Assembly: GCA_900618795.1 (NCBI GenBank)
Contig: UYJD01000024.1
Span: 1 to 27,463 of the forward strand
Direction: 5' to 3'
Length of the DNA stretch: 27,463 nucleotides
Origin: Cyanodermella asteris
Lineage: Eukaryota > Ascomycota > Lecanoromycetes > Ostropales > Stictidaceae
A program made the translations under genes and the position numbers. Shown piece after piece: positions 6,992 to 27,303 of the stretch. Positions within the stretch are counted from its first letter, which is position 1, and each line of letters starts with the position of its first letter. The notes below the pieces were generated by a model that saw only the letters and a list, made by a program, of their open reading frames with translations, was not told where the DNA came from and searched no databases.

Positions 6992-7004
6992 TTTAAACAT
7001 TTAC

Positions 7005-7074
7005 AAGAGCTTTCAGATTCGAACTGATATTTTAAAGTTTGAAGCTTTCTGTTTTAACCATTAAACTAAGCTCT
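7005..7074 (-). tRNA. trnW: tRNA-Trp (UCA)
   Basis: Acceptor AGAGCTT/AAGCTCT is perfect. The loop CTTCAAA gives the anticodon UCA, which reads both UGA and UGG. This independently confirms that UGA means Trp here. Confidence 0.93.
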
Positions 7075-7107
7075 TTATTTATTTTTGTTTATAAAAATAA
7101 TTATCAG

Positions 7108-14236: not shown

Positions 14237-16234
14237 TTAATAGTGTAAAAAAAGATTTGTCTTAATATTGTTATATCTAATAGATATAAAGATAGTTAAG
14301 ATTAATAAAATAAATAAATTTAGAGTGAATAGTTTAGCATATACAATTAGAATGTAAAAGATTAAACCAATTAAAATATATAGTGCATAAGTAGTAACTA
14401 CACCTGTATCAAATTTAGTTAAATTTGAACTTAAATTTAATATAGCCTTTTCTAAACCGTATGGTCCTACTAATTCTACAGATCCTTTATCTAAGACCTT
14501 AGTAGTTTGTCCACCTAATTTAAATATTAAATTAGTAATATATTTGTTATATACCAACTCAATCAAAAATCTTTGATTAAAAAAACCAAATATATTATAA
14601 CCTATATTAGAAAATTTAAATAATAATAATAATAACTTAGGTAAAAATTCAGATAAAATAATTGAGACTATACTTAATAAAATAGTAAAAAATAAAGGTA
14701 ATAGTTTGTAAAAAGTAGGTACAGCAAACTCTGTATCTAACAATATTTCATTGCTAGGGTGTATAAATATACTGTTATCAACAAAAAAACTAGAACCCAA
14801 ACCTATAAATATATCCTTAGTAATATACCCGAAAAATATAGAGAATACAGCTAAAATTATTAAAGGTATAGACATGAATTGTTTACCTTCATGTGCATTT
14901 TCATAATTAGTTATAGGACCAAGAGGATTAGTTAAAAAGGTTAAATATAATACTTTAATACTATATAATGTAGTAAACATAGCTCCAATACTTGCTATAA
15001 AGTATACAGTTATACCTGAAAAAGTAAATTGTCCAAAAGCAGACTCAAGTATAAAATCTTTACTATAAAAACCAGTCATAAAAGGAAAGGCTACTAAACT
15101 TAAAGAAGCTATTAACATAACTGAGTATGTTAAAGGTAATAATTGTCTTAAACCACCGTATCTTCTAAAATCTTGGTTATCCGACACAGCATGTATAACT
15201 GCACCAGCTCCTAAGAAAAGTAGCGCTTTGTAAAAAGCATGATTAACTAAATGAAATAAAGCTACATTATATGAAGATAAACCAATAGCTATAACCATCA
15301 TACCTAATTGACTCATAGTAGAATAAGCTATAACTTTTTTAATATCTTGCTGGAATAATCCTATTAAAGAACTAAATACCGTAGTTAACGCACCTAGTCA
15401 TAAACAACAAATTAATACAGTAGAGCTATATTCTAATAAAGGAGATGAACGCATTAATAGATATACTCCAGCTGTAACCATAGTAGCTGCATGTATTAAT
15501 GCGGATACCGGAGTTGGACCTTCCATTGCCATAGGTAATCAAATATGTAAACCTACTTGACTACTTTTAGCCATAGCACCTATTAGTAAACATATACCTA
15601 TTAAAGTAATTAAATTTTCATTTATAAAAGGTGATATAGAAAATACTGTACTGTAATCTATATTACCAAAAGATCATAATAATGCAAACATACCTACTGT
15701 TAGTAGACAATCTCCTACTCTATTGGTTAAAAATGCTGCCATAGAACTTTGATTTGCAGCAATTCTAGTAAATCAAAAACTAACTAATAGATACGAACAA
15801 ACACCTACTCCTTCTCAACCAACAAACATTAATAAAAAATTATTTGCAGTTACTAATATTATCATCATAAATGTAAATAAACTTAAGTAACTGAAGAATC
15901 TTTGATTATGTGGGTCATGACTCATATATTCTATAGAATATATATGTACTAATGAAGATACAACTAAAACAGGTATTAACATAGATACTGTTAAACTATC
16001 AAAATTAAACCCTCATAATATATTAAGTGATTCTGAATCCATTCACCTAAATAGGTGAATGGATACAGGTATATTGTTAAAACCTACTTCTGTAAATGCT
16101 ACAAATGATAATATTGTAGTAGTTATTACACAACTACATGTGATAAAATGTGATCCAGATACTCCAACTTTTCTACCAAAAAAGCCAGATGCTATTGATC
16201 CTAATAAAGGTAAAATTATAAGTGTTAAATACAT
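14237..16234 (-). CDS. nad5: NADH dehydrogenase subunit 5
   Basis: The large antiporter-like subunit of complex I, 665 aa. It begins [20 protein letters not shown]. The core includes [60 protein letters not shown] and [18 protein letters not shown]. The C-terminus is the long lateral helix and final membrane segment, ending NLFLHY then TAA. Many TGA codons are Trp, so only the C-terminal half looks open in the standard code. Its ATG overlaps the nad4L stop by one base (TAATG), a conserved fungal coupling. A 28-bp near-perfect palindrome at 16037-16064 lies within the coding region without disturbing the protein. Confidence 0.97.
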
Positions 16235-16589: not shown

Positions 16590-16964
16590 CTATGCATATA
16601 CATTGATAGTTTGTCTACTATCTATTTTTAATGCATTTTTCCCTAACTCAAATGCAAACCCTAATGTTAATAATAAAAAGAATATTAACATGAATATTAA
16701 TCCATATATACCATTTAATTGAGAACTTACTGCAAAAGGATATATTAGTAATATTTCTAAATCAAATAATAAAAATAATAAAGCAAAAATAAAGAATGAT
16801 ATACTAAACTGTGATCTATTTTGACCAAGAAAAGAATTAAACCCACACTCAAAAGCACTATTTTTTTCTTTATATGGATTATGAGGAGCTAATAAAAAAT
16901 TCACACCTAATAAAACTAGCCCTAATATCGGAATAAGTATAAAAAAAAAGGTAATACTAGTCAT
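16590..16964 (-). CDS. nad3: NADH dehydrogenase subunit 3
   Basis: A small membrane subunit of complex I, 124 aa. It contains PYKEKNSAFECGFNSF, whose Cys lies in the flexible loop that marks the active/deactive transition, and LLFLLFDLEILLIYPFAV with the acidic residues of the second helix. It ends in TAG. Its ATG overlaps the last base of the nad2 stop (TAATG), the usual nad2-nad3 coupling in Pezizomycotina. Confidence 0.97.
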   Translation of the reverse strand: MTSITFFFILIPILGLVLLGVNFLLAPHNPYKEKNSAFECGFNSFLGQNRSQFSISFFIFALLFLLFDLEILLIYPFAVSSQLNGIYGLIFMLIFFLLLTLGFAFELGKNALKIDSRQTINVYA

Positions 16965-20645: not shown

Positions 20646-21368
20646 TTATTGTTCTTGTAATCAAGCTAAAAATTTTTCTATAGGTAATGATTCTATAACA
20701 ATAGGCATAGAACTATGTAATATACCACAAATTTCAGAACACTGACCATAAAAAACACCTAATCTATTAATTAACACTGATACCTGGCTTAGTCTACCTG
20801 GATAAGCATCACATTTAATACCTAAAGCTGGACAAGCAAAGGAATGTATAACATCCGCCGCAGTTACTATAAACCTAACATGAGTTAATTCAGGTAATAT
20901 AACTCTATTATCTACTTCAAGCATTCTTAAAGCACCTTCTTGTAAATCTACTTCAGGTACTAAATATGAATCATACTCAATAAATTCTTCATCTGTATTA
21001 AGAAAATCAGGATATTGGTAACTTCAATATCATTGATGACCTTCAGCTAAAACTGCCATAGCTGGATCACTTACTTCATCCATTAAATACAATAATTTAA
21101 ATGAAGGAAATGCTATTAATATTAATATTAAAGCTGGTGTAATAGTTCATATTAATTCTATTAATGTACCATGATCCGCGTATTTATAGCTTATAGGTAG
21201 TGAATTATAACAATAATTTACAATAACAGAAAATAAAATTCAACCTACAGCAAATAATATAATAACTAAGTAAAACATTATATTATCATGTAATTCCGTT
21301 AGACCCTCCATTTGTGGAGATGCACTATCTTGGAAATATAAACCTCAAGGTTTAGGTGCATCAAGCAT
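20646..21368 (-). CDS. cox2: Cytochrome c oxidase subunit 2 (C-terminal part of the cob-cox2 frame)
   Basis: The CuA-bearing subunit of complex IV; its two membrane helices and the copper domain face the intermembrane space. Homology begins at [18 protein letters not shown] and continues through [35 protein letters not shown], the aromatic patch EGHQWYWSYQYPD, DNRVILP, and the CuA site: H in VIHSF, then [16 protein letters not shown]. It ends ...LAWLQEQ then TAA. The start shown, ATG at 21368, is the only Met near the family N-terminus and would leave no leader peptide. However, the frame is open without a break through cob, so Cox2 may instead be made as the C-terminal part of a longer chain. 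About 240 aa, a normal mature length. Confidence 0.93.
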
Positions 21369-22841
21369 TTCTACAGGTCAAATAGTAGAGATACCATCAA
21401 ATATAGGATATATACAAATTAATGGTGTATTAAGTATATCACCTGGTGCTATACCACATTGACTAATTACTATTAATAATGGCACTAATGTAATTATACA
21501 GGCAAGTGTAACCGGTTTAGATACATGTATTGTTTTACAAGGGTGCCCACATTTAGGGCAATTTTTACCTTGTAAAACTCAGCTTTCAGTACCTTTAGCA
21601 GCACATTTTGGACATTTTATACCTGGCATAGGCATAGCGGGTAAAATATTATTAACTAAAGAATCTTTAGATTTGTTAACGTTACTTATATTGTTAGGTA
21701 ATTCAACTAATGTATTTTCTAGTATTGTAGCTTGTGGAACTAAATATAAAAAATATGAAAAATATATAACAGTAGAAATTTGACCTAATTCTATGAAAGG
21801 AGATTCTACATGTTTAGCACCTAAAACCATAAGTAATAAGAAATTACCTACAAATACGTAATAAATAACCTTACTTAGAGGTTTAAATTGGGCACCTCTA
21901 GTTTTACTTAAATCCGTAAATGGCAATGTTAATAAAATTAAAATTGCAGCAAACATAGCAATAACACCTAATAGTTTATTAGGTATACTTCTTAATATAG
22001 CATAAAATGGTAATAAATATCATTCTGGTACTATAGCAGGTGGTGTTTGCATAGGGTTTGCCATTACATAATTTTCACTATCTCCTAGCACATTAGGCAT
22101 AAAGAATACAAATATAGATAATATTAGTATAAATAAGAAGATAGTTATTAAATCTTTAAATATAAAATAAGGTGCGAAAGCTAATCTATCGTAATTACCT
22201 GATATACCTAAAGGGTTACTTGATCCTGCACTATCATGTAATGCAATTAAATGCATTAAAGCTAAAGCTGCTATCACAAAAGGTAACACAAAATGTAAAG
22301 CAAAAAATCTATTTAAGGTAGCATTATTTACACTAAATCCTCCTCATATGAACTCAACTATATCTTGACCTATTCAAGGTATTGCACTCATTAAGTTAGT
22401 AATAACTGTTGCACCTCATAGAGACATTTGACCATATGGTAAAACATACCCCAGAAAGGCTGTAGCCATCATAACTACAAATATTACTACTCCTAATGCA
22501 AATGTTAAAGTTCTAGGTGCTTTATATGAAGCGTAGTATAAATTTCTACCTATGTGTAAGTAGACTAAAAAGAAAAAAGCAGATGCTGTATTAGAGTGTA
22601 AATAACGAATTAATCATCCATTATTTACATCACGCATTATGTGTTCTACTGAATTAAATGCTTCTAAAACGCTAGGGTTATAATGCATAGCTAAAGTAAC
22701 TCCTGTTACTATTTGAATAACTAAACAAAATGCTAATAAAGAACCGAAATTTCACAAGTAACTTAAGTTACTTGGTTGTGGGCTGTCAATTATATATGAA
22801 TTAACTAATTTTAATAAAGGGTGACTTTTAAATATTCTCAT
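20646..22841 (-). CDS. Continuous cob-cox2 reading frame (731 aa)
   Basis: From the cob ATG at 22841 to the cox2 TAA at 20646-20648 there is no TAA or TAG in frame; I checked the junction codon by codon. Only TGA codons occur, and these are Trp here. Residues 1 to about 385 are cytochrome b, about 386-491 a new linker, and 492-731 Cox2. Separate cob and cox2 genes are the rule in fungal mitochondria. The product could be a precursor cut in the linker, a stable fusion, or two proteins if a ribosome starts internally at 21368. A sequencing error removing a stop is possible, but the linker is not random: see the linker entry. Confidence 0.85.
21369..21683 (-). other. cob-cox2 linker: zinc-ribbon-like motifs plus one membrane segment
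   Basis: Linker residues of the fused frame. After the usual end of cytochrome b comes [18 protein letters not shown], then [15 protein letters not shown]: Cys at 410, 413, 428, 431 and 435, arranged CxxC-x14-CxxC, like a zinc ribbon. Next KTIHVSKPV, a hydrophobic stretch at about 444-465 ([19 protein letters not shown]), then a partly hydrophobic segment ending WPVEM before Cox2 proper. Cytochrome b ends in the matrix and Cox2 starts in the intermembrane space, so one extra membrane helix is needed to link them, and one strong hydrophobic segment is present. Metal binding is an inference from the Cys pattern. Confidence 0.75.
21684..22841 (-). CDS. cob: Cytochrome b (N-terminal part of the cob-cox2 frame)
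   Basis: The central subunit of complex III, with two haem b groups and two quinone sites. It starts [19 protein letters not shown]. Seen in order: [39 protein letters not shown] with the first haem His pair, [17 protein letters not shown] (Qo helix), [19 protein letters not shown] with the second His pair, and [20 protein letters not shown] (the PEWY Qo motif). The last helix ends near [15 protein letters not shown]. Normal proteins stop near residue 385-390; here no stop exists and the frame runs on. The 3' limit given is therefore the estimated homology end, not a stop codon. No introns. Confidence 0.95.
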
Positions 22842-25142: not shown

Positions 25143-25370
25143 TTATTGTTTATCAAAACTACTTTGTAGGGGTAAACTCACATAACTGTTATATTTAGGT
25201 GATGAGTTTATACTTCATAAAATATCATAATAAAAATCTCCTTTTGCTCAAGGATATCTGACACTAGGTGTACCATAAACTAATTGAGCGTAAACTATAT
25301 ATAAAAACAACCCAGTAGCTACTACACTAATTATAGATCCTACACTACTTATTAAATTTCAACCAGCAAA
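25143..25370 (-). pseudogene. Second cox1 3' end (partial duplicate)
   Basis: A copy of the cox1 C-terminal coding region lying downstream of the intact gene. It starts abruptly at [12 protein letters not shown] (25370) and reads on to DIL, then WSINSSPKYNSYVSLPLQS and SFDKQ then TAA (25143-25145). Bases 25218-25370 are identical to 25807-25959 of cox1 (153 of 153 compared by eye). Beyond that, 36 bases (12 codons, QSMINRAYPSLE) are absent, in frame, and the tail diverges in sequence but is clearly homologous to the cox1 tail. The open frame extends upstream only to about IYYDHLCSKR, with no start codon. It has the look of an older native C-terminus left behind after a new one was inserted, or of an alternative end swapped by recombination. 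Confidence 0.88.

Positions 25371-25689: not shown

Positions 25690-27303
<1,614 letters not shown>

Follow-up and report, generated by a model that had tools for sequence, protein, structure and literature searches.

The mitochondrial DNA of Cyanodermella asteris encodes cob and cox2 in a single uninterrupted reading frame, and this fusion is not unique to the window (the whole stretch of DNA analysed, 27,463 nucleotides, which is one entire contig) but recurs in many related sequences. The fused frame (20646..22841, minus strand) runs from an ATG at 22841 to the TAA stop codon of cox2 at 20646-20648, also minus, and encodes 731 aa in code 4. Its 731 codons include no TAA or TAG and 14 TGA, which are Trp under code 4, so the earlier note, which does not name the strand, was right to describe the frame as open from the cob ATG to the cox2 TAA; the plus strand of the same interval is full of stops. 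The cob part (residues 1-382; 21696..22841, minus) matches three Pfam families, PF00033, PF13631 and PF00032, well above their cut-offs across residues 18-361, and its border with the linker is approximate, placed by eye using the alignment with relatives. The cox2 part (residues 494-731; 20649..21362, minus) opens with the mature-like start DAPKPWG, a pattern present in 122 of 122 proteins compared, and matches PF02790 and PF00116 across residues 496-718, again well above cut-offs. Between them lies a linker (residues 383-493; 21363..21695, minus) with no Pfam match above cut-off over residues 385-491. A tRNA with anticodon TCA at 7004-7075, minus (labelled SeC by ARAGORN), is presumably the tRNA-Trp for UGA, and it supports code 4 because such a tRNA is expected where Trp reads UGA.

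The fused frame is real. A linker of 110 open codons has a chance probability of 3e-5 given how often stops occur in the intergenic DNA of this mtDNA, 1e-3 from the base composition of the linker itself, and 2e-4 under an order-1 Markov model of the linker. GC by codon position is coding-like in the linker (0.39/0.43/0.14), with a third-position dip common to cob (0.39/0.34/0.14) and cox2 (0.45/0.34/0.10), where intergenic DNA has a GC of 0.19; the dip is hardly visible in the first 20 linker codons (0.25/0.25/0.20). Stops occur in the two other forward frames of the linker and in two of its three reverse frames. Because the remaining reverse frame is also stop-free, openness alone does not prove the linker to be coding, and the argument is one of recurrence and content. 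A search of the organism's own 28.5-Mb, 25-contig genome, with the best candidates scored, found no second cob or cox2, and the sole further match to the fusion was a 42-residue piece resembling a zinc ribbon (see below). That the frame is an assembly error or a pseudogene is scarcely credible: it is the sole copy found, both parts match their families in full, and the recurrence of this arrangement in other contigs makes a mistake of assembly unlikely.

Using residues 375-500 as the query (57 candidates) finds just one protein, P0001 (856 aa), which has domains of both cob and cox2. When the cox2 region is the query and candidates are limited to proteins of about 402-1280 aa, 1191 matches result. 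Among the best 120 of these, which are 90% clusters rather than species and many of which begin inside cob, 113 have cob plus cox2 domains and seven have cox1 plus cox2, in a search whose length limit lets it show only long, fused proteins. The earlier note's premise that fungi normally keep cob and cox2 apart is too sweeping, although unfused relatives lie beyond the reach of the length-limited search. The related fused proteins appear to be fungal, judging from Cox2 identities of 81-89%. No relative of the fusion was found in the bacterial and archaeal genomes searched.

Fused mitochondrial respiratory-chain genes of the cox1/2 kind encode a pair of complete subunits in a single stop-free frame, with no separate copy elsewhere in the genome, and the frame described here does the same for cob and cox2. 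Single cox1/cox2 frames occur among the Pleosporales (Stemphylium lycopersici, Didymella pinodes and Phaeosphaeria nodorum; PMC5626475); there, as here, cox2 is the downstream partner and no stop intervenes, whereas the upstream partner is cox1, of the same complex, rather than cob of complex III. In the window, cox1 occupies a separate frame (27357-25690). Acanthamoeba and Dictyostelium likewise use one frame for two respiratory subunits (PMC5626475), but with a different partner and in a different lineage. No report of a fungal cob-cox2 fusion was found among the matches listed in the open-licence literature, which mostly excludes subscription journals; the accessible text of studies on Hypocreales introns (PMC7202290) and on Shiraia (PMC4366305) reports none. 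(The joined or neighbouring names cob and cox2 in Pleurotus, PMC10869244, describe mere gene order in the text available and not a fusion.) Fusions of cox1 and cox2 are known; cob as the fusion partner of cox2 in fungi appears, within the literature covered, to be the new element. Hidden fusions could explain several odd cox2 starts in the accessible parts of published mitogenome reports: TTA, as printed for Xanthoparmelia (PMC12886410); GTG in Cladonia subulata, where cob is next upstream (PMC10204972); and TAA, as given in a table for Pseudocercospora fijiensis (PMC7999263). If a Cob-Cox2 precursor is indeed made recurrently, annotated cox2 starts could be wrong in some mitogenomes.

We consider it probable that the fused gene yields one precursor, Cob-linker-Cox2, which is inserted in the membrane and then cut before DAPKPWG by the inner-membrane peptidase (IMP). 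In this model a single chain would be made in the order Cob, linker, Cox2; Cob would insert with its C-terminus in the matrix, and the linker would cross the membrane once, thereby placing the Cox2 start in the intermembrane space. IMP would then cut directly before the D of DAPKPWG to free mature Cox2, while the linker would stay on Cob as a C-terminal tail or be lost in a second step. The C-terminus of Cob lies in the matrix, and the fusion needs an odd number of membrane crossings because the Cox2 start belongs in the intermembrane space. In yeast, the N-terminal domain of pre-Cox2 is exported to the intermembrane space by Oxa1 and Cox20 and then cut by IMP (PMC5855863); the same export and cut are predicted here, with the site before D proposed by analogy to yeast. 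Yeast pre-Cox2 has a leader peptide of its own, whereas the upstream part here would be all of Cob plus the linker helix. The C. asteris genome has a Cox20 match above cut-off, and S26-peptidase matches at two loci. One of these reads GPSMLPT (translated by eye), which we take to be the S26-peptidase motif. S26 also covers other signal peptidases, and one of the two loci is a candidate IMP; with that assignment the genome would encode both IMP and Cox20, as expected for an IMP-cleaved Cox2 precursor.

The linkers of the related proteins have the look of segments that cross the membrane and are then cleaved. From 122 proteins (the best 120 of the 1191 matches, P0001 and the window), 121 linkers were parsed, 115 of them cob-cox2 and 6 cox1-cox2, with P0096 left out. 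The 115 cob-cox2 linkers, window and P0001 included, range from 37 to 748 aa with a median of 59, and their content varies widely. Helices were called by a simple hydropathy scan only (19 residues, mean >=1.4), which predicts none in 7 linkers, one in 92, two in 9, three in 6 and six in 1. Exactly one helix is therefore called in 92/115 linkers, before the mature-like start of Cox2, against a mean of 40 and a maximum of 53 in 200 residue shuffles; the number is odd in 98/115 (shuffled 42, maximum 54) and even in 17/115. After thinning to 86 dissimilar linkers, 65 have one helix (shuffled 30, maximum 40), and at a stricter threshold of 1.6 the full set has one in 83/115 and none in 24/115. The median distance from helix end to Cox2 start is 10 residues, compared with 23 in shuffles. 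The AT-rich code itself favours helices, as exactly one is found in 44% of draws when stop-free peptides are taken from the intergenic DNA of this mtDNA. The six cox1-cox2 linkers divide evenly, three with one helix and three with none. In the 79 thinned linkers with a helix, K/R density per residue is 0.102 over the 15 positions that precede it and 0.063 over the 15 that follow, where the Cox2 start makes up any shortfall; with linker residues alone counted, K/R before exceeds K/R after in 58 rows and the reverse holds in 2, the stretch after often being the shorter. Immediately before the D of the Cox2 start, the 121 linkers have C (84), L (16), N (12) or S (9); the D itself belongs to the search pattern and is hence no result.

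The window linker has one predicted helix (residues 446-464; 21450..21506, minus; Kyte-Doolittle mean 2.42), an odd count, which ends 29 residues upstream of the Cox2 start. It is followed by another hydrophobic stretch, a weaker one (mean up to 1.36), and should that stretch also span the membrane, the proposed topology would fail here. Three proteins, P0002, P0003 and P0004, have long linkers (748, 589 and 183 aa) in which further, incomplete Cox2 starts can be seen by eye, suggestive of repeated addition of cox2 ends.

Met content bears on another reading, in which one mRNA is made and translation of Cox2 begins independently at an internal codon close to the linker end. The window has a suitable codon, an in-frame ATG at 21368, two codons before DAPKPWG. 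Met is absent, however, from 32/115 linkers (23/86 of the thinned set), so that those linkers offer Cox2 no ATG start, and it occurs within the last 20 residues in 46/115 (35/86). Moreover, with a separate start nothing would keep the linkers clear of stops. Non-ATG starts would be compatible with the protein sequences, but we think a separate start unlikely. Cutting or editing of the mRNA between cob and cox2, to give two ordinary proteins, was raised by the authors of the Pleosporales cox1/2 study (PMC5626475) for that frame. For the frame described here it seems very improbable, since searches of the linker revealed no tRNA that might direct cutting and since a linker that looks coding and contains both a helix and a conserved motif would be left unexplained.

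The earlier note had also read the fusion as one precursor, and had gone on to suggest that it ties Cob to Cox2, enforcing equal supply or helping supercomplex assembly. Its first part fares well: the single frame and the cob plus cox2 domains of 113/120 listed matches favour a common precursor, which is still to be called probable. For a lasting tie, equal supply or a part in supercomplex assembly no supporting evidence was found, and the linkers look suited to crossing and cleavage. Were Cob and Cox2 to stay covalently joined, complexes III and IV would form a tethered pair; the frame is indeed open and recurrent, and the helix of the linker might lie in the membrane between III and IV. Against this, the mature-like start of Cox2 is kept while linkers of 37-748 aa vary in content, the genome has candidates for Cox20 and S26 peptidases, and in Acanthamoeba a single large mRNA of the cox1/2 fusion yields two products (Lonergan and Gray, as told in PMC5626475). 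We regard such a tether as decidedly unlikely. The cleaved precursor, if made, would be a recurrent joint source of core subunits of complexes III and IV, and would alter how their synthesis is coordinated in these fungi; the fusion also offers a natural test of Cox2 insertion and cutting.

Ahead of its helix, the window linker carries a motif resembling a zinc ribbon (residues 403-435; 21537..21635, minus) of the form CPKC-x14-CPKC-x3-C, which the earlier note does not bring up, nor its nuclear twin described below. This double-CxxC ribbon is found in the window, P0001, P0008 and P0012 and in no other of the 122 proteins (it is absent from 7/7 cox1-cox2 proteins among the best 120 matches). 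In these four, 23/33 motif positions are identical, including all five cysteines, while the remaining linker hardly aligns. All 18 Pfam families listed for the linker fall below their cut-offs, named zinc-ribbon families included, and the best PDB matches to the motif are weak ones to ribosomal zinc ribbons (top, eS27, E 0.09). With the proposed topology, the position of the motif before the helix would put it on the matrix side, and in this species the Cob tail would carry it there; any role for it is, like precursor synthesis, topology and cleavage, a prediction from sequence. In a tree of 109/122 proteins (13 were dropped, one part missing), whose bootstrap has not settled and where P0001 is a long branch, the four ribbon carriers belong to a six-member group (support 99/91). 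The other two members, P0005 and P0006, lack the ribbon, so the tree needs three changes (e.g. a single gain plus two losses). Eight loci in viral contigs match a DNA pattern for the ribbon. A separate scan of viral contigs with a two-sequence alignment (A1) gave one locus, L003, on a fungal-type mitochondrial contig with an unfused cob, the one unfused cob seen. Other cysteine-rich stretches can be seen by eye in the linkers of P0002, P0051, P0087 and P0089, the last three unlike the ribbon of the window.

The motif has a nuclear twin at G000:C3:514175-514270, minus, and these two places, nuclear and linker, are the only ones found in the genome. The two copies agree at 30/31 residues, yet 22/31 codons and 26/93 bases differ, and the Trp of the motif is TGG in the nucleus and TGA in the mtDNA. 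This pattern suggests that selection on the protein maintains both copies and that neither was copied recently. At the nuclear locus an upstream frame ending HMP is followed by GTATGT...TTTAG and then MPGIKC, apparently an intron within the gene for a 69-aa protein. The mtDNA reads MPMPGIKC, as if spliced, which fits either passage from nucleus to mtDNA via RNA or passage from mtDNA to nucleus with acquisition of a new first exon. The 69-aa protein has no relative in the protein collection searched, where a 31-codon exon is easily missed. We offer tentatively, as a possibility less likely than not, that a zinc-ribbon-like domain passed between the nuclear and mitochondrial genomes and works in both under selection on its protein. 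Presence of the same motif in both genomes of one cell makes transfer of a domain between genomes, and its use, testable. If the nucleus was the donor, this would be a working transfer of coding sequence from nucleus to mitochondrion, giving Cob a metal-binding tail on the matrix side.

The window is a fungal-type mtDNA whose recognisable protein genes, rRNAs and tRNAs are all on the minus strand. Its intron-free protein genes, single coding strand and GC of 25% resemble those of the Rhinocladiella mackenziei mtDNA (PMC5844311). A 161-base piece of the 3' part of cox1 (25799-25959) is repeated with 99% identity at 25210-25370, 589 bases further downstream on the minus strand and within a short frame (25385-25143); for Pseudocercospora fijiensis, too, truncated cox1 copies have been reported (PMC7999263). 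The frames of nad2 and nad3 share one base at 16964, as do those of nad4L and nad5 at 16234 (gene names by recognition). Between nad5 and nad1 lies a 49-aa frame (14043-13894, minus) that is rich in charged residues, unlike the membrane proteins encoded around it.
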